Part shown: one piece after another, positions 35,017 through 49,941 of the stretch | How the letters are laid out: every line of letters starts with the position of its first letter | Position numbering within the stretch: the stretch's first letter is position 1 | DNA from: Methanocaldococcus villosus KIN24-T80 | Lineage (GTDB): Archaea; AGJL01; Methanococci; Methanococcales; Methanocaldococcaceae | Length of the DNA stretch: 64,000 bases | Assembly: GCF_000371805.1 (NCBI RefSeq) | Contig: NZ_AQUK01000001.1 | Span: 186,001 to 250,000 of the forward strand | Direction of reading: 5' to 3' | The notes under the pieces: model-generated | Database searches by the model: none | What the model was told of the DNA's origin: nothing | The model's input: only the letters and a program-made list of their open reading frames with translations | Program-made: the position numbers and the translations under genes

Positions 35017-35087
35017 AATTTCAATCCTTGTAAACTTTGAAAAATATTTTTATTATTAATTAATTTTATATTTATTTGAGATATTAA

Positions 35088-35107
35088 GATTTCTAAAATC
35101 CTAATAG
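35088..35107. promoter_or_regulatory. degenerate copy of the inverted-repeat box upstream of the activator gene
   Basis: Aligned by eye with the box at 37867-37886 it matches 15 of 20 positions, including the whole right arm TCCTAATAG versus TTCTAATAG except one base. The left arm is poorly kept. It lies about 46 nt before the activator start. AT-rich background makes this weaker than the copies at 36541 and 37868. Confidence 0.3.
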
Positions 35108-35152: not shown

Positions 35153-35887
35153 ATGATTCTAGGTATAGATGTTGGCTCAACAACAACAAAAATGGTTCTA
35201 ATGGATAATAAAAAAATAGTTGATTATAAAATAGAAAATATAGGAGTTGTTGTTGAGGAGGAGGATATTTTAAAGATGGTTAATGAGTTTGAGAAAGAAT
35301 ATAATATCAATAAAGTAGTTGCTACTGGTTATGGAAGACACAAAATAACTTTTGCAGACAAAATTGTTCCAGAAGTTATTGCATTAGGAAGAGGAGCAAA
35401 TTATTTTTTCAGGGAAGCTGATGGAGTTGTTGATATTGGTGGGCAAGATAGCAAGGTTATAAAGATAGATAAAAATGGAAATGTTGTAGATTTTATCCTA
35501 TCTGATAAATGTGCAGCAGGAACTGGGAAGTTTTTGGAGAAATGTATAGAGATTTTGAAGATTGAGGATGACATAAATAAATATAGATCAAATAATGTTG
35601 CTAAAATCTCATCCATGTGTGCTGTCTTTGCAGAGAGTGAAATTATCTCCTTATTAGCTAAAAAAACACCAAAAGAAGATATTTTAATGGGGGTTTATGA
35701 GAGCATATGCAATAGAATTGTCCCAATGGTAAATAAATTAGGGATAAGTAATATTGTTTTCAGTGGAGGAGTTGCAAAGAATAGGGTTTTAGCAGAAATT
35801 TTAAAGAAAAAGTTAAATAAAAGTATCTTAATTCCAAAAGAACCGCAAATTGTTTGCTGTGTTGGTGCTATATTGAAGGGCTTTTAA
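35153..35887 (+). CDS. ATP-dependent activator of a double-cubane/2-hydroxyacyl-CoA dehydratase-type reductase
   Basis: A 244-residue ASKHA-fold ATPase of the HgdC/BadF/YjiL family. ATP-binding motifs: GIDVGSTTTKMVLMD, VVDIGGQDSK, and IVFSGGVAKNRVL. Two cysteines, Cys120 (DKCAAGTGKF) and Cys156 (SSMCAVFAESE), would bind one [4Fe-4S] at the dimer interface. In the family, ATP hydrolysis drives one electron at very low potential into the partner protein, here the reductase at 36573. The start follows TGGTGAAATA. I recall the MJ0004/MJ0007 pair of M. jannaschii flanking the same fdhBA genes. Confidence 0.88.
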   Translation: MILGIDVGSTTTKMVLMDNKKIVDYKIENIGVVVEEEDILKMVNEFEKEYNINKVVATGYGRHKITFADKIVPEVIALGRGANYFFREADGVVDIGGQDSKVIKIDKNGNVVDFILSDKCAAGTGKFLEKCIEILKIEDDINKYRSNNVAKISSMCAVFAESEIISLLAKKTPKEDILMGVYESICNRIVPMVNKLGISNIVFSGGVAKNRVLAEILKKKLNKSILIPKEPQIVCCVGAILKGF

Positions 35888-35919
35888 AATCTTTAATCTT
35901 TTAGAATCTTGGTGGGAAG

Positions 35920-36417
35920 ATGAAAGGAAAGAAAATTGCAATTGTAGCTCACTGCATATTAAATCAAAATAGTGTTGTTAACGGCTTAGAGAGGGCAGAA
36001 GGGGCGTTTAATGATGTTGTTGAATTGCTTTTAAAGAAAAATTATGCTATAATTCAACTCCCATGCCCAGAAATGCTATATTTGGGGATAGATAGGGTAG
36101 GAAAAACAAAGGAGGAATATGATACTGAGGAATATAGGGAGCTTTGTAGGGAAATTTTAAAATCAACAATCAAATATTTGAGAGAATATAGTAAAGAAGG
36201 ATTTAAATTTATTTTAATTGGAATAGAAGGGTCTCCGACATGTGGGATTTTTAAAACTGTAACAAAAGAAGGATTAATAGATGGAAGAGGTATTTTAATG
36301 GAGGAATTTTTAAAAATGTTAGAGAATGAGCATATAGATTTGAAGAAAATTGATTTTCCAGTAAATATGAATGAATACAACAAATTTTTAAAAGAATTAG
36401 AAAGATTGTTGATGTAG
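35920..36417 (+). CDS. DUF523/TudS-like putative desulfidase
   Basis: A 165-residue protein similar to DUF523/TudS enzymes, which carry a [4Fe-4S] cluster held by three cysteines and remove sulfur from thio-compounds. Cysteines are Cys12 (AHCILNQN), Cys49 (QLPCPEMLYLG), Cys76 and Cys108 (GSPTCGIF). The first, second and last fit the three cluster ligands. Its place between activator and reductase genes argues for handling a sulfur or selenium substrate, which is inference. The start follows TGGTGGGAAG. The gene begins 32 nt after the activator stop. Confidence 0.8.
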   Translation: MKGKKIAIVAHCILNQNSVVNGLERAEGAFNDVVELLLKKNYAIIQLPCPEMLYLGIDRVGKTKEEYDTEEYRELCREILKSTIKYLREYSKEGFKFILIGIEGSPTCGIFKTVTKEGLIDGRGILMEEFLKMLENEHIDLKKIDFPVNMNEYNKFLKELERLLM

Positions 36418-36440: not shown

Positions 36441-36459
36441 CTATTAAAAACTCTAATCA
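36441..36459. promoter_or_regulatory. inverted-repeat box copy (after the TudS-like gene)
   Basis: CTATTAAAAACTCTAATCA matches 16 of 19 positions of the perfect palindromic copy at 37868 (CTATTA-N7-TAATAG). It lies 24 nt after the TudS-like stop and about 114 nt before the reductase start, upstream of the TATA-like GTTTTTATAC at 36491-36500. It could be a second operator half of the reductase promoter. Confidence 0.45.
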
Positions 36460-36540
36460 CCTAATTATTATTAAAATTTTAAATAAAAATGTTTTTATAC
36501 ACTTACATTTTAAAGAAATTTGATGATTTTTGAAGATATG

Positions 36541-36559
36541 TTATTAAAAAATCTAATAA
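36541..36559. promoter_or_regulatory. inverted-repeat operator candidate before the reductase gene
   Basis: TTATTA-AAAAATC-TAATAA is a perfect 6+6 inverted repeat with a 7-nt spacer. It sits between the TATA-like element (36493-36500) and the GGTGAT site (36564-36569). The same layout and the same core recur at 37868-37886. Arms ATTA...TAAT fit a T-N11-A type binding site, but no regulator is encoded nearby. Confidence 0.55.
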
Positions 36560-36572
36560 CTAAGGTGATATG

Positions 36573-37691
36573 ATGGAGCTAAATGCAATAAAAAAACTCA
36601 TGGAAAAATTTGCAAATAGGAAAGAACAACTCTACAAACAAAAAGAAGAAGGAAAGAAAGTGTTTGGTATGTTCTGTGCATTTGTTCCAATTGAATTAAT
36701 ATTGGCAGCTGATGCTATTCCAGTTGGCTTGTGTGGAGGTAAAAATGACACAGTTCCAATTGCAGAGGAGGATTTACCAAGAAATCTCTGTCCATTGATA
36801 AAATCATCTTATGGATTTAAAAAGGCAAAATCATGCCCATACTTTGAGGCAGCAGATGTGATTATTGGGGAAACAACATGCGACGGTAAGAAAAAGATGT
36901 TTGAGTTATTGGAAAGAATGGTTAAAATGCATGTTATGCTCCTTCCATACATGAAAACAGAAAAAGCAAAGGAATTATGGGTTGAAGAGGTTAAAAAATT
37001 AAAAGAGTTAGTTGAAAAGGAAACAGGTAATAAAATTGATGAAGAAAAATTAAAAGAGAGTGTTGAAAAAGTAAACAAAATGAGAAAACTTTTCTACAAA
37101 TTATATGAGTTAAGAGCAAACAAACCAACACCAATAAAAGGTCTTGATGCTTTAAAATTGTTCCAATTTGCTTATTTGTTGGATATTGATGATACAATAG
37201 AAATTTTGGAGGAGTTAGTTAAAGAGTTAGAAGAGAGAGTCAAAAAAGGAGAAGGTTATGAAGGTAAAAGGATATTAATAAGTGGTTGCCCAATGGTTGC
37301 TGGAAACACAAAAATTGTTGAGTTAATTGAGGAAGTTGGTGGGGTTGTTGTTGGTGAGGAAAGTTGTACTGGAACAAGATTCTTTGAGAATTTAGTTGAA
37401 GAACCAACTATTGAGGGTATAGCAGAGAGATACTTAAAAATCCCATGCGCATGCATGTTCCACAACGATGAGAGGATAGAGAACATCAAAAGATTGGTTA
37501 AAGAGTTGAATGCTGACGGGGTTGTTTACTACACATTGCAGTATTGCCACACTTTCAATGTAGAGGGGACAAGAGTTGAGGAAGAACTTAAAAAAGAAGG
37601 CATTCCAGTTATTAGGATTGAGACAGATTACTCTGAAAGTGATAAAGAGCAATTAAAAACAAGATTAGAGGCATTTATTGAAATGATTTAA
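36573..37691 (+). CDS. double-cubane-cluster reductase (HgdB/YjiM-like)
   Basis: A 372-residue protein of the 2-hydroxyglutaryl-CoA dehydratase D-component family, in the single-subunit branch with double-cubane [8Fe-9S] clusters. Cysteines at 35, 54, 73, 88, 103, 239, 265, 292, 294 and 325 include the pairs in [34 protein letters not shown] and [10 protein letters not shown] expected of that branch. With its ATPase activator it would carry out ATP-driven reduction of a small molecule; the natural substrate of this branch is unknown. No alpha subunit is present, which argues against a true hydroxyacyl-CoA dehydratase. Start 36573 (second ATG) is better spaced from GGTGAT. T-rich sequence follows the stop. 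Confidence 0.85.
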
Positions 37692-37700
37692 ATTTTTAGG

Positions 37701-37720
37701 TTTTTTTCTTTTTTCTTTTT
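37701..37720 (+). terminator. T-rich terminator after the reductase gene
   Basis: Two or three runs of 5-7 T separated by single C (37701-37720), with more T-runs up to 37760, follow the stop codon at 37691. Archaeal RNA polymerase terminates at such U-tracts. The rest of the 205-nt gap to the next gene holds a TATA-like ACTATATATA (37816-37825) and the operator box at 37868. Confidence 0.55.
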
Positions 37721-37867
37721 GTTATGTTATTATTTGTTTTTATTTTTCTTTTTTAATTTTCTAATTGTTATTAATTTTTTTAATAACTTTATATTGATTA
37801 AACTTCTTAAACAACAAACTATATATATCATTTTTTGAAGAAAAATAAAATGATTTAGACAAAAATG

Positions 37868-37886
37868 CTATTAAAAATTCTAATAG
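37868..37886. promoter_or_regulatory. perfect inverted-repeat operator candidate before the YedE half-genes
   Basis: CTATTA-AAAATTC-TAATAG is a perfect 6+6 inverted repeat with a 7-nt spacer, the best copy of the box. It touches the GGTGAGGG ribosome-binding site of the first YedE half-gene and lies about 45 nt after the TATA-like element, so a bound protein would block initiation or early elongation. Confidence 0.6.
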
Positions 37887-37896
37887 GTGAGGGCGT

Positions 37897-38355
37897 ATGA
37901 GAATTTCTCCATTAGTTGCTGGTCTTATAGGAGGTTTCTCCGCTGCGCTGTTGCAGGCGTTTTTTAAGGTATCTCCACCACCAGCGTATGGGATTTGTAT
38001 CGCCTGCCACACAAGAGATTTGGTCAATTGGATTGTAAATGCAATTTTTGGTACAACTTTACCAATGGCTCCAGTTTCAAAGGTTTTTCCAGTTTTAACT
38101 GTTGTTGGTATTTTTATTGGAGCATTTATCGCAGCTAATGTTCATAAGGAGTTTAAGATAAAACAAACACACAATCCAATAGTTGGTTTTGTTTTGGGAG
38201 TTTTGGTTGTGATATTTGCGTTGTTGATGGGTGGATGTCCATTGAGGGAAACAATAAGAACAGCCTATGGAGATGTTATTGCATTGATAAGTTTAATAGC
38301 AATGTTTACTGGTGTAATTGTGGCAAGTGAAGTCTATTTAAAAAGAAATGTTTAA
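37897..38355 (+). CDS. YeeE/YedE family transporter, half-protein 1
   Basis: A 152-residue membrane protein with about four hydrophobic segments. The conserved cysteine motifs are GICIACHTRDLVNWI and MGGCPLRETIRTAYGD; in YeeE-type thiosulfate channels such cysteines pass sulfur species through the membrane. In bacteria the family is usually one chain of about 330-400 residues. Here it is split, and the second half is encoded 11 nt downstream. Members of the YedE branch accompany selenium use. Ala-GCG and Leu-CTG/TTG codons near the start are unlike neighbouring genes, hinting at a different history. Confidence 0.85.
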   Translation: MRISPLVAGLIGGFSAALLQAFFKVSPPPAYGICIACHTRDLVNWIVNAIFGTTLPMAPVSKVFPVLTVVGIFIGAFIAANVHKEFKIKQTHNPIVGFVLGVLVVIFALLMGGCPLRETIRTAYGDVIALISLIAMFTGVIVASEVYLKRNV

Positions 38356-38366
38356 GGTGGTGATAG

Positions 38367-38840
38367 ATGGAATACTTGCATGCAATTGGAACATTCATAT
38401 TTGGAATCCTTTTAGGTTATTTATTTCAAAGAGCAAGAATGTGTTTTATTGGAGGGATGAGAGACTTTTATTTAATAAGAGATACATGGTTAATTAAAGG
38501 TCTCTTTGGGTTTTTTGGTGGAGCATTATTAGGTTATATAATATTTAGTGCTATGAGTAAAATTCCATTCTTCCCATGGATTGCTGTAAAAGGCTTTACC
38601 CCAATCCCAGGAGACCCATTAGGTAAAGCAGGAAGTTTAGTTGGACATTTAATAGTTGCTATTATTGGTGGATTTGGAGTTGGATTTTTCTCAGTTATCC
38701 AAGGGGGTTGTCCATTGAGAAACTATGTTATGGCAGCAGAGGGGAATAAGACGGCGATTGCATACATATTAGGACTTGCTGTTGGAGCAGTATTGTTCCA
38801 CACCGTTGTAGTTCCTATCGTTAAGGCAATACTGTTATAA
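38367..38840 (+). CDS. YeeE/YedE family transporter, half-protein 2
   Basis: A 157-residue membrane protein, the partner of the previous gene. The motifs FQRARMCFIGGMRDFYLIRDTWLIKG and IQGGCPLRNYVMAAEGN match the second repeat of YeeE/YedE transporters. Four or five hydrophobic segments are visible. It follows the first half after 11 nt behind GGTGGTGATAG, so equimolar production is likely. The cargo is expected to be a reduced sulfur or selenium species, by family association only. Confidence 0.85.
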   Translation: MEYLHAIGTFIFGILLGYLFQRARMCFIGGMRDFYLIRDTWLIKGLFGFFGGALLGYIIFSAMSKIPFFPWIAVKGFTPIPGDPLGKAGSLVGHLIVAIIGGFGVGFFSVIQGGCPLRNYVMAAEGNKTAIAYILGLAVGAVLFHTVVVPIVKAILL

Positions 38841-38856
38841 TCTTTTGGGGAAATTT

Positions 38857-39423
38857 ATGATCTTAAAGAAAATAAAAAAATTACTTAGAAAGAAAGGTAA
38901 TGAAGAAAAAGAATTTGAAGGTAGGGGATTGATAATTTTTAAAAGTGTTAAAGATGCAATGAAAGCAGAAAGTATTTTAAAGAATTATAATGTTAGAGTG
39001 GTGGCTCCTCCTTATGAGATAAGAGAAGGTTGTGATTTAGCATTAGAGTATGATTTGGTAGATGAATTGGGAATTAAGAGAGAATTAGAAAAAAATAATA
39101 TTAATCCATTAAAATTCATCCCTTTAAATGATTATTCCTTAAAACCTCTTGAATTAATAAAAATTAAAGAAATTGATGGATTTATTATGGTAAGATGTGG
39201 AAATATGAAGATAACAATTGATAAAGAAGGGAATATTGTAAATATCTCTGGCGGCGGATGTCCAGATGTGCCATATTTGGCATTAAAATTAAAGGGAAAA
39301 AATATTAAGGATATTAAAGAGGATGAGACTCCAAAAAGTTTGGGGTATACATTATGTGCCTATACTTTAAATAAGGCATTTGAAAAGGCAAAAGAATTGA
39401 TAAATTTAAAAAATAAATTTTGA
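38857..39423 (+). CDS. DUF3343 (putative Se/S carrier) protein with extra C-terminal domain
   Basis: A 188-residue protein. Residues 22-90 form a DUF3343-like domain: GRGLIIFKSVKDAMKAESILKNYNVRVVAPPYEIREGCDLALEY, with Cys59 in the conserved position. Residues 95-185 form a second domain with Cys114, Cys135 (ISGGGCPDVPYLALKLKG) and Cys167 (SLGYTLCAYTLNKAF), which I do not recognise. DUF3343 often stands beside YedE/YedF in selenium-using genomes. I use ATG 38857 behind GGGGAAATTT; the TTG at 38845 is an alternative. Co-transcribed with the YedE halves (16-nt gap). Confidence 0.75.
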   Translation: MILKKIKKLLRKKGNEEKEFEGRGLIIFKSVKDAMKAESILKNYNVRVVAPPYEIREGCDLALEYDLVDELGIKRELEKNNINPLKFIPLNDYSLKPLELIKIKEIDGFIMVRCGNMKITIDKEGNIVNISGGGCPDVPYLALKLKGKNIKDIKEDETPKSLGYTLCAYTLNKAFEKAKELINLKNKF

Positions 39424-42243: not shown

Positions 42244-44265
42244 TCATAATATTTTTTCAACTCTAACAGCACATAACTTAAGTTCAGGAATCTTACTTTT
42301 TAGATCTAAGATATTGTTTGTCAATATATTAGCTTTAGTTTCTGCAAAGTGAAATGGCATAAATAAAACCCCTTCTTTAATATCCTTAGAAATCCTCACT
42401 TTTACAATAACTTCCCCTCTTCTTGATGATACCTTTACTAACTCATTGTTTTTAATTCCCAATCTTTTAGCATCTTCTAAATTCATCTCTATATATCCTT
42501 CATTAATTTCTCTTATTATATGCTCACTCCTTCTTGTCATTGTTCCTGTGTGATAATGAAATATTATCCTTCCAGTTGTTAAAATAAATGGATATTCTCT
42601 ATCTGGTAACTCCATTGGGTCTTTATATTCTACTGGATGTATCACTCCTAAACCATCTGAAGTTAAAAATTTATCAGTATATAAAATTGGAGTTCCTGGG
42701 TCTTTTTCATCTTTGCATGGCCACTGTATTCCATCAATTCCTAGTCTGTCATATGTTATCCCTGCATATTGGGGAGTTACTTTCCTAATCTCTTCAAATA
42801 TTTCCCTTGGAGAGTTATAATTAAATTTATATCCCATCTTCTCTGCAAGTTTTTTTATTATTCTCCAATCTTCCATTGCCTCTCCTGGTGGATTTACTGC
42901 CTTTCTTATTCTTTGCACTCTCCTTTCAGTGTTTGTAAATGTTCCGTCTTTCTCTGCCCAACATGCTGCTGGAAGAACCACATCAGCAAGTTCTGCAGTT
43001 TCAGTTAAAAATATGTCTTGAACTATTAAGAAATCTAATGATTTCAAAGCATGTTCAACATGTTTGACATTTGGATCTGATACCATAGGATTTTCTCCCA
43101 TTATGTAAAGACATTTTATCTCTTTTCCTGATTTTTCAATCATTTCAGGAATTGTTAGCCCAATTTCATTATTTAATTCAACACCCCAAAATTCTTCAAA
43201 TTTTTTGTAAGCAAGATTTATTTTTTGATAACCAGGAAATACATCAGGTAAAGCACCCATATCACAGGCTCCTTGAACATTATTCTGCCCTCTAAGGGGA
43301 TTAACTCCAGTTCCTCTTTTCCCTACATTTCCAGTTATCATTGCTAAATTACATAATGCCTTTACTCCATCTACACCTGATGTAAATTGGGTAACCCCCA
43401 TACAGTAAATTATTGATGCCCTATCAGCACTTCCATACATTTTTGCTGCCTCTATGATCAACTCAGGAGGAACTCCACAGATTTTTGAAACATATTCAGG
43501 AGGGTATTTTTCCACAACTTTTTTTAACCCTTCAAATCCTTTTGTTCTATTTTTTATAAATTCCTCATCAATTAACCCCTCTTTTATAATCACATGCATC
43601 ATTGCATTTATTAAGGCTACATTAGTTCCAGGATTTATTTGTAAAAACAAATCAGCATTTTTAGCAGTTATTGTTTTTCTTGGATCAACTACAATTATTT
43701 TAGCACCTTTTTCTTTTGCCTTAACTATTCTTCTTGCTATTAAAGGATGTTGTTCAAAAGTGTTAGAGCCAATTATAAATATACAGTTAGCATCTTCAAT
43801 ATCTTCAATTGAGTTTGTCATAGCACCAGACCCAAAGGCCTCCCTTAAAGCCAAAACAGTTGGTGAATGTCAAAGTCTTGCACAGTGGTCTATATTATTA
43901 GTTTTTACAACTACTCTTGCAAATTTTTGAAAAATATAATTATCTTCATTGGTACATCTTGCAGATGAAAAAAACCCTACCTCTTCTGAAGAATACTCCA
44001 TTAGTCTATTTGCAATCAAATTCAATACTTCTTTCCATGAGGCTTCAACAAACTCTCCACTCTTATTAATTAGTGGCTTTTTTAATCTGTCTTTACTATG
44101 GATAAATTCATAACAATAGCTTCCCTTAATACAAGTTTTTCCCTCATTTATTGGATGTCTTTTGAATGGGTAAGTTCCAACAACTTTCCCATCCTTTACA
44201 ATCAAATCTATCCCACAACCCACCCCACAGTATGGACAAATTGTATGAACAAATTTTAATTCCAT
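42244..44265 (-). CDS. fdhA: formate dehydrogenase alpha subunit, selenoprotein (Sec132 at in-frame TGA)
   Basis: A molybdopterin/tungstopterin oxidoreductase of 673 residues, read through a TGA at 43870-43872. The residues around it, DHCARL[23 protein letters not shown], match the formate dehydrogenase active site. The [4Fe-4S] site is CPYCGVGCG (Cys10, 13, 17) plus Cys45. The later domains [34 protein letters not shown] and the C-terminal [20 protein letters not shown], followed by [10 protein letters not shown], continue in the same frame, so this is not a pseudogene. ATG 44265 follows GGTGATATTA. A SECIS hairpin lies in the leader at 44312-44343. Confidence 0.96.
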
Positions 44266-44311
44266 TAATATCACCATTATTCTAATTTGGAGGCCTTTGG
44301 GTCTTTTTTCA

Positions 44312-44343
44312 CCACCTGCTCCCAATAATGGGTTCGCAGATGG
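44312..44343 (-). promoter_or_regulatory. archaeal SECIS element in the 5' leader of fdhA
   Basis: On the mRNA strand an 8-bp stem CCATCTGC / GCAGGTGG (one G-U) is followed by an asymmetric internal loop, GAA on the 5' side and A on the 3' side. A 4-bp stem CCCA / TGGG closes a 4-nt loop. This is the archaeal SECIS consensus. It lies 47-78 nt before the fdhA start. Most archaeal SECIS elements are in 3' leaders, but the M. jannaschii fdhA element is reported at the 5' side, as here. Confidence 0.92.
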
Positions 44344-47041: not shown

Positions 47042-48718
47042 ATGAAAAAACTTATTCTAATCATTCTAATATTATTATTAAGTGGTTGTATATCTAAAGA
47101 AGAAGATATAAGTGATTTTAAAATTTTTGAAGTAAATGATCCCAAAAAATTATTTATTAATAAATATGAATACAACATTTATAAAAATGAATATAAGTTC
47201 TCTGAAACCAATGTTCAAGTTAGAGGAGTTGATGAAGCTGATATTGTTAAGACAAATGGCTGTTTTATTTTTTATTCCCCAACTTCATATTTTAACAAAA
47301 AAACTTATATTATAAACTCTAAAGCATTAAATGTAACAAATGTTATAAAAGATGGTAATCTACTGTATCTAAAAAATAACACATTAATTATAATAAATAG
47401 ATTTAAAAACACTATTACATCATATGACATATCAAATCCAAAAAAGATAAGAGTTATCTGGAAGAAGGTTTTAAATGGTAGTTATGTTGATTCAAGAGTT
47501 TATAAAGACAAAATATATTTAATTATAGCAAAAGGTGATTATCCACAAATTTGGTATGATGTAAAATTAAAATATTACATTCCAAATGTCCCCATATGCA
47601 GAAACTACATTATCTCTGAAATAAATATTAAAAATGGAAAGATTAATAGAGCTATAGCCTTGGCTGGAGGATATAATACCATCATTTATATGTCAAGAAC
47701 TAATATTTATCTAACTTACTATATCTCCCATAGAGATAGGGCTTATCTTGATTTTATAAAAGAGAATGCTGAAAAATATTTTCCAGAAGAGTTATCTAAA
47801 ACTCTCAAAAAGATTATTGATGATAACTTATTTAGTGATGAAGCTAAGCTTTTAGAAGTTAAAAGAAGAATTAATAGTTATATTTACCAACTACCAAAAG
47901 AAGATGCTTTGAACTTAAAAAATATTTTAGATAAAGATTTTACAAATTATTTAAAGAAAAATATATATAAATATGAAAGGACAGGGATTGTTAAAATAGA
48001 TTTAAAAAGCTTTTCAGTGAAAAGCTCATCAGTTCCTGGAAGATTAATTAATAGGTATGCTATGGATGAATATAATGGAAATTTAAGATTAGTAACAACA
48101 TTAGGAGATCCCATAGTTGGATATAGAAATAATGTGTATGTATTAAATAGTAACTTAAAATTAATAGGAAAATTGGAAAATATTGAAGAGGGTAAGAAAA
48201 TTTTTGCTGTTAGATTTTTAAAAGATAAAGTTTTTATAATAACATATTATAGAAAGGATCCTCTTTTAGTAATCTCATTAGATGATCATCCAAAAATTTT
48301 AGGATATCTAAATATTTCAGGATACTCTACATATCTTCATTTTATTAATAATGATAAACTATTGGCTATAGGAAAAGATGATGATGGGAAGATCAAAATA
48401 GATTTATATAATATCTCTAATTATAATAACCCAAAGTTATTAGATAGATTTAAATTAGATAAATTTTGGAGTTTGGCTTTATATAACCCACATGCATTTT
48501 TATGGAATAAAGAAAATAAGATCTTAGCAATTCCTATAGAAAGGAGTGCTTATATTTTTAAAATAGACAATGAAATAAAATTAAAGAAAATTATTGAGCA
48601 TTTGGATTATGTGGAAAGAGTTATTTATATAAATAATCACATCTTCTCTTTATCCCCATCAGAAGTAGTTAAAACAAATATTACATCTTGGAAATCTGAA
48701 AAACTCGTGATAAAATGA
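47042..48718 (+). CDS. secreted beta-propeller lipoprotein
   Basis: A 558-residue protein. Residues 1-18 are a lipoprotein signal ending LLLLSGC. The core begins with [23 protein letters not shown], the signature of the archaeal/bacterial beta-propeller domain family (PF09826). Blade-like repeats continue to the end ([82 protein letters not shown]). An insert at about 245-310 is helical. Probably lipid-anchored outside the cell; function unknown. It shares an ATGA overlap with wecC, suggesting an envelope link. Start ATG 47042 follows GGTGAAAATT. Confidence 0.85.
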
Positions 48719-49941
48719 AGATTTGTGTCATAGGTTTGGGATATATTGGGCTTCCAACAGCTTCTATGCTGGCTATAAAAGGATTTAAGGTTGTCGGAGT
48801 AGATATAAACAAAAGTAGGGTAGAAGAAATAAAAAATTTAACATTTAAAACAGTTGAAAAAGATTTAGATACTTTGGTTAAAGGAGCCATAAACTCAGGA
48901 AATTTGATTGTAAAAACTGAACCTGAAAAAGCGGATGTTTTTATTATTTGTGTGCCTACTCCAATAGATGAAAATAAAAGATGTGATTTAAGCTATTTAA
49001 ATAAAGCTATTGAAGATATAAAACCATTTTTAAATGAAGATAATTTAATTATTATTGAAAGTACTGTACCTCCAGGAACATGTGAAGAGTTGTATAGAAA
49101 ATTAAATAAAAAAGTATTCTTAGCCTATTGTCCAGAGAGGGTTTTACCAGGAAATTTATTAAAAGAACTTGTTGAGAATGATAGGATTATAGGAGGAATA
49201 AACAAAGAATCTGCTGAAATGGCAAAGAAAATATATGAAAGCTTTGTTAAAGGGGGAATATATTTAACAGATATAAGAACTGCTGAAATGGTTAAATTAA
49301 TGGAAAATATATATAGGGATGTTAATATAGCATTAGCAAATGAGTTTGCTAAGATATGTGATGAACTATCTATAAATGTTTGGGAAGCAATAAACTTAGC
49401 TAACAAACATCCAAGAGTTAATATTCTAAAACCTGGCCCTGGTGTGGGGGGGCATTGTATAAGTATAGATCCTTGGTTTATCGTTGAAAAATCAAAACAT
49501 GCTAAACTAATAAAAACTGCAAGAGAAATTAATGATAACATGCCTCTATATGTTGTTGAAAAGATAAAAAAGCTTAAGCCTAGGAATATAGCTATATTTG
49601 GTGTAGCTTATAAGGGAAATGTTGATGATGTAAGAGAGAGCCCAGCTATTAAAATAGTTGATTTACTCTTAAAAAATTATAATGTTAAGTGCTATGATAG
49701 TTATGTTAAATCATTCACCTACCCACTATATAGCTTAGAAGAAGCTGTTAAAGATGCTGATTTAATTGTTATTTTAGCCGATCATGATGAGTATAAAAAC
49801 TTTTCTGAAGAGGATATAAAAATAATAAAAAAGTTAGTAAGAAGGCATATTATATTTGATACAAAAAATGTTATTAATAAAGATTTATGGGAAAAAGAAG
49901 GTTTTAAAGTTTATTTATTGGGTGATGGACATATTAAATAA
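48715..49941 (+). CDS. wecC: UDP-N-acetyl-D-mannosamine dehydrogenase
   Basis: A 408-residue NAD-dependent sugar-nucleotide dehydrogenase. Features: the Rossmann start [39 protein letters not shown]-type [36 protein letters not shown], and the catalytic-Cys segment [20 protein letters not shown]. The C-terminal domain is [28 protein letters not shown]. It oxidises UDP-ManNAc to UDP-ManNAcA; the epimerase making UDP-ManNAc is at 3512. Its neighbour upstream overlaps by ATGA. The tail overlaps the UbiD-family gene by 8 nt. Confidence 0.95.

Follow-up and report, generated by a model that had tools for sequence, protein, structure and literature searches.

HrsM (also LysR_Se) of Methanococcus is one of the closest described counterparts of the system analysed here. 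It is a LysR-type regulator reported to repress the Cys-isogenes at adequate selenium by binding the frc-vhc intergenic region (PMC11097638). Selenium depletion of M. maripaludis raises frc/vhc by 8 to 14 log2 units, an Sdm-type methyltransfer operon by 5.6 to 7.8, a molybdate-type binding protein by 5.8, yedE by 5.3 and tusAD by 4.5 to 4.6, leaves sps, spcS and pstK unchanged and lowers mtd; according to this 2024 study, it is unknown how selenium is sensed and how HrsM passes the signal on (PMC11097638). Work cited in PMC5322559 is said there to show that disruption of hrsM lowered both Sec and Cys isogenes. A selenium-related gene neighbourhood consisting of YedE, DUF3343, LysR_Se and 2-hydroxyglutaryl-CoA dehydratase with its activase was described by Lin et al. 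(2015). Classical LysR operators combine a T-N11-A recognition site with a tandem activation site. Neither a binding sequence for HrsM nor a broader set of its target genes was found in the literature that we searched; older work on M. voltae frc-vhc may describe part of the site.

We analysed 64 kb of Methanocaldococcus villosus DNA (the window), which contains a neighbourhood of the kind described by Lin et al., made up of an activase, a desulfidase-like protein, a reductase, a split YedE and a Se/S carrier. In that earlier work the genes were linked by neighbourhood and co-occurrence, whereas here they are linked by a shared putative operator, and hrsM lies elsewhere in the genome. The system resembles that of Methanococcus in having a regulator of the NF040786 family, the motif in a frc-vhc intergenic region and genes of types whose expression rises when selenium is short. 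The published targets, however, are Cys-isogenes, whereas the box, its layout and its targets yedE, double-cubane reductase, tusA-dsrE, ModA-like protein, corrinoid protein and hrsM are deduced here from sequence, mostly in another genus. In common with classical LysR operators, the sites have a T-N11-A core, occur in tandem about 27 bp apart and include one at the regulator's own promoter; unlike them, they include a further full palindrome 100 bp away in the leader, and the TATA box is therefore enclosed. The operator definition, its extension to yedE, the double-cubane reductase and the activase, and the TATA-enclosing layout appear to be new within the literature searched.

Palindromes at the reductase and yedE promoters

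The original prediction, made from the window alone, described perfect inverted repeats with equal spacers at 36541 and 37868, each downstream of a TATA-like element. Both are present, with perfect 6-bp arms and a 7-nt spacer, and both lie between the TATA element and the start codon (Table 1). Exact matches to YTATTA-N7-TAATAR number three in the window, at 36541, 37768 and 37868, and all fall inside 1,346 bp, where 0.02 (0.019) would be expected (P ~1e-6, given 18 per genome). The perfect copy at 37768, exactly 100 bp 5′ of that at 37868, had been overlooked. A third copy with an imperfect arm had been proposed at 36441-36459 and was found there, 100 bp 5′ of 36541 and followed after 27 bp by a weaker palindrome with eight of nine pairs. 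The two weakest copies proposed did not hold up: that at 35881-35899 has five of nine pairs, scores 0.3 on the matrix described below and overlaps a gene end, and that at 35088-35107 has three of ten pairs and scores -26; neither is a site. Both perfect inverted repeats are genuine and cannot be put down to chance.

The palindrome as such is common. With up to two mismatches it occurs in the window at background level (113 found, 98.6 expected), and exact matches over the whole 1.25-Mb genome number 18 compared with 13 for a reversed-pattern control, a slight excess. This whole-genome search had been suggested as a check. By that yardstick the bare palindrome is no rarity in a genome so rich in A and T, and genome-wide palindrome counts are uninformative as evidence for sites; the case is carried by position, conservation and spacing. 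A spacer-specific form of the motif is enriched in the window (16 compared with 6.1), and none of 100 shuffles reached 16.

The layout is an array and not a set of single boxes. At both the reductase and the yedE promoter a first site (O1) is followed by a weaker site (O2) at +27, the TATA element near +51 and a third site (O3) at exactly +100. Mean matrix scores over 31 promoters aligned on O1 peak at 0, +27 and +100, the TATA element starts at a median of +51, and pairs of sites recur at spacings of 27 bp and 98-100 bp. The O1/O2/TATA/O3 layout is also found at the modA and corrinoid-protein promoters, and Methanococcus tusA-dsrE has an array with a spacing of 98-99 bp. The spacing is about 70 bp at Methanococcus yedE, and the hrsM promoter in general has a single palindrome. 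No clear integer-turn rule of helical phasing emerged across the promoters, where spacings of about 70, 77-80, 98-100 and 105-118 bp were seen.

Table 1 Genes and promoter elements of the reductase–yedE block (window positions)
Feature	Position	Strand	Description
Candidate operator before the activase gene	35081-35099	+	ATATTAAGATTTCTAAAAT; fourth in the window, score 16.2
Activase of the reductase (acyl-CoA dehydratase activase family)	35153-35887	+	TIGR00241, 317 bits (cutoff 125.4)
TudS-related putative desulfidase	35920-36417	+	NF045597, 179 bits (cutoff 130)
O1, reductase promoter	36441-36459	+	Imperfect palindrome CTATTAAAAACTCTAATCA; exactly 100 bp 5′ of O3; orthologous O1 scores 19.5 in two relatives (G010 and G011)
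O2, reductase promoter	36468-36486	+	TTATTAAAATTTTAAATAA; 27 bp after O1; window score 9.4
TATA element, reductase promoter	36492-36501	+	TTTTTATACA; midpoint between O1 and O3
O3, reductase promoter	36541-36559	+	TTATTAAAAAATCTAATAA; perfect arms; in predicted 5′ leader; best matrix score in the window but in the training set; kept in relatives
Double-cubane-cluster anaerobic reductase	36570-37691	+	NF040772, 501 bits (cutoff 350); PF06050
O1, yedE promoter	37768-37786	+	TTATTAATTTTTTTAATAA; perfect arms; score 20.9, second in the window; kept at -126 to -132 in relatives
O2, yedE promoter, degenerate	37795-37813	+	27 bp after O1; own score -8.2; aligned position reads ATTAnAnTT in relatives
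TATA element, yedE promoter	37819-37829	+	CTATATATATC; midpoint between O1 and O3
O3, yedE promoter	37868-37886	+	CTATTAAAAATTCTAATAG; perfect arms; score 17.1, third in the window; outside the training set
YedE, first half	37897-38355	+	PF04143; TIGR04112 match under cutoff
YedE, second half	38367-38840	+	TIGR04112 positions 188-308
Se/S carrier-like protein	38845-39423	+	PF11823

The TIGR04112 match of the first YedE half falls under the cutoff because the gene is split, and a split yedE has been reported for archaea (PMC5322559). For the activase gene, 35081-35099 is a better candidate operator than the proposed 35088 copy; it is tentative because its arms are imperfect. In one relative (G034), a site with a score of 21.5 lies immediately before the activase gene (locus L243). 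Elsewhere in the window, fdhA (42244-44325, minus strand) contains one in-frame TGA, at codon 152 of the frame, which we read as selenocysteine, and on this basis the organism is probably Sec-decoding.

Conservation of the motif across Methanococci

Reductase relatives were located in 27 of the 36 genomes of the class. The DNA upstream of their genes holds the palindrome in most cases, with the consensus TATTA-R-N5-Y-TAATA (best example, TTATTAGAAAATCTAATAA); only weaker matches precede some second reductase copies in Methanococcus and the genes of three genomes (G018-G020). In a tight pattern search over the 36 genomes, the motif turned up in the space separating a LysR gene from a divergently oriented PLP-fold gene, before tusA-dsrE and the genes for a ModA-like binding protein, a corrinoid methyltransferase protein and a phosphonate-type binding protein and also, in one Methanococcus genome, in the frc-vhc intergenic region (L219). 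In several Methanocaldococcus-type genomes (G007, G008 and G013) vhcD and the reductase gene diverge from each other, and the sites are common to both.

To avoid circularity, a matrix was trained on reductase sites only and then applied to orthologous promoters of other genes, with a threshold score of 9 and reversed sequences as control. The threshold was reached by 20 of 22 yedE promoters (control, 0), 8 of 9 modA promoters (control, 0), all three corrinoid-protein promoters (control, 0), 26 of 30 hrsM promoters (control, 2) and 26 of 30 tusA-dsrE promoters (control, 3), the last scanned over 620 rather than 330 nt. Among hydrogenase genes, 14 of 16 promoters of vhcD, the selenium-free form, scored at least 9 (control, 1), compared with none of 14 for the selenocysteine form vhuD (control, 0), which is a weak negative control because the DNA before vhuD may be operon-internal. 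Results for selD were mixed (13 of 30; control, 3). Among unrelated promoters at these loci (n = 52), 6% reached 9 and 2% reached 12. Related genomes are not independent observations in any of these promoter counts. A de novo dyad count over 110 non-reductase promoters gave TATTA-N7-TAATA as the commonest dyad (81; the next, 34). Reversed sequences served as a control for matrix scores only; they are invalid for dyad counting because a dyad reverses into a dyad.

HrsM as the candidate regulator

The LysR gene next to the motif codes for a member of the selenium-metabolism LysR family (match to NF040786 above cutoff). In the genome of the window the HrsM orthologue lies on contig 1 at 47838-48719 (NF040786, 273 bits; cutoff 250), and its promoter carries an imperfect, overlapping palindrome with a borderline score of 9.0. 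Strong orthologues occur in 34 of the 36 genomes; of the other two, one (G031) has a weak partial match and one (G014) none. The PLP-fold gene divergent from hrsM had been considered as SelA-like, a candidate that we rejected, as family and PDB searches gave weak aminotransferase matches only.

Several observations connect the sites with this regulator. The motif-bearing genes are of the kinds induced by selenium starvation in M. maripaludis, namely yedE, tusA-dsrE, ModA-like protein, corrinoid protein and vhc, where the corrinoid and ModA-like proteins are equated with the published genes by family and not by locus tag. Together with the conservation of the palindrome at these promoters across the class, this gene set speaks for the single shared repressor that the original prediction had proposed. 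Its guess that the repressor is HrsM is also favoured, by sites before hrsM itself, at genes of the selenium-starvation type and in the frc-vhc region, a reported HrsM target. The inner core of the consensus, TTAGAAAATCTAA, is a T-N11-A LysR box, as the original prediction had suggested. We consider it highly probable that the palindromes are HrsM operators; repression probably involves a bridge enclosing the TATA box.

In this mechanism, the operator core is TATTA-R-N5-Y-TAATA, with TTAGAAAATCTAA as its inner part. When selenium is sufficient, HrsM would occupy O1/O2 and O3, and a tetramer or larger assembly would bridge them across the TATA box and block TBP/TFB or polymerase. Upon exhaustion of selenium, the yedE, reductase and probably activase genes would be released for selenium acquisition; in relatives the same operator would serve hrsM itself, the selenium-free hydrogenase genes, tusA-dsrE and the genes for the ModA-like protein and the corrinoid methyltransferase protein. 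The sites, their conservation and spacing, the gene set and the presence of HrsM are established by sequence. We infer the occupancy of O1/O2 and O3 by HrsM as well as the bridging, the loop from spacing alone. The broader proposition, that an archaeal LysR protein represses by bridging operators placed symmetrically around TATA and 100 bp apart, as a fixed promoter-enclosing selenium-starvation switch at several unrelated selenium gene families, may equally well prove right or wrong.

HrsM could also bind these sites to a different end. The leader site O3, at +100, belongs to the best conserved parts of the array and is placed as a roadblock, and the literature presents HrsM as repressing frc/vhc (PMC11097638). 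It is nevertheless possible, if rather unlikely, that HrsM acts here mainly as an activator or in a dual role, with the O1/O2 pair recruiting the transcription machinery on loss of selenium and O3 tuning the response. Binding to a tandem pair of sites 5′ of the promoter is common among LysR regulators, and the 27-bp spacing of O1 and O2 is conserved. The fall in both Sec and Cys isogenes that has been ascribed to disruption of hrsM would also fit an activator.

Four findings run counter to HrsM as the regulator. G014, the only complete genome without a detectable HrsM gene, has good sites at tusA-dsrE and yedE and weaker ones at the reductase gene and modA; there are perfect sites upstream of two genes that lack an obvious selenium link, psmA (in three Methanococcus genomes) and mer (in the genome of the window); the window genome's own hrsM promoter has only an imperfect site; and some Methanocaldococcus-type selD genes carry a site, yet sps is unresponsive in M. 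maripaludis. The first two would be accommodated by a different regulator with these selenium and sulfur genes under its control and hrsM among its targets. We regard such a regulator as improbable: hrsM has the site before it in 26 of 30 genomes, and this site matches the T-N11-A pattern of LysR boxes and occurs in the frc-vhc region, to which HrsM reportedly binds.

Readings that dispense with a DNA-binding protein fare worse. The repeats at both promoters fall within 11-codon frames (36538-36573 and 37865-37900, MLLKILIGEGV*), each with a stop overlapping the main start, and could in principle encode a short leader peptide, MLLKxLI, translationally coupled to the reductase and yedE. This is very improbable: O1 lies upstream of the predicted transcription start, and we rejected the peptide because the start codon is absent from most relatives and the frame is not conserved while the palindrome stays. 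An RNA hairpin was set aside because O1 and O2, upstream of the predicted start, would not be transcribed. Chance similarity of AT-rich promoter DNA, with which the near-background numbers of loose and even exact palindromes over the whole genome would agree, has a negligible probability in view of the clustering (P ~1e-6), the conservation at orthologous promoters, the fixed spacings and the enrichment in six other gene families.

With HrsM as the probable ligand, a defined operator would allow the HrsM regulon to be predicted in any Methanococci genome and would connect selenium starvation with the orphan double-cubane reductase and its activase. It bears on how archaea sense selenium and which genes respond, and it supplies short DNA boxes with which binding, looping and the effector (selenophosphate?) could be assayed.

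Other genes preceded by the motif

The matrix scan found no site at selD of the M. maripaludis-like Methanococcus genomes G014-G017. In several Methanocaldococcus-type genomes, TTATTAGAAATTCTAATTG lies 112-149 bp upstream of the selD match (L389, L392, L395, L397, L399 and L400), and for genomes carrying this site we predict control of selD.

The perfect site at psmA (proteasome alpha) is ATATTAGATTTTCTAATAT, about 130 bp 5′ of the gene in three Methanococcus genomes including G014 (position 2000 of L216, L217 and L218). That at mer (methylene-tetrahydromethanopterin reductase) has a perfect core and lies about 110 bp 5′ of the gene (L214, position 2000; contig 1 of the window's genome, 1071230). 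Intergenic regions of ZIP-type transporter genes also contain perfect sites (L212, L215 and L222), and in the genomes of L212 and L215 the transporter gene is divergent from an mtd-like gene. A gene for a CbiR-like or xylose-isomerase-like TIM-barrel protein, which often adjoins the reductase gene, carries a site as well (L017, 4510-5266; L211, 2000-2739; L244, 1248-1942) and is a candidate new member of the selenium regulon. A perfect site lies 10 bp from the start of the gene for a PhnD/phosphonate-type ABC binding protein (L225), which matches the putative selenate-binding model TIGR04553 under its cutoff.
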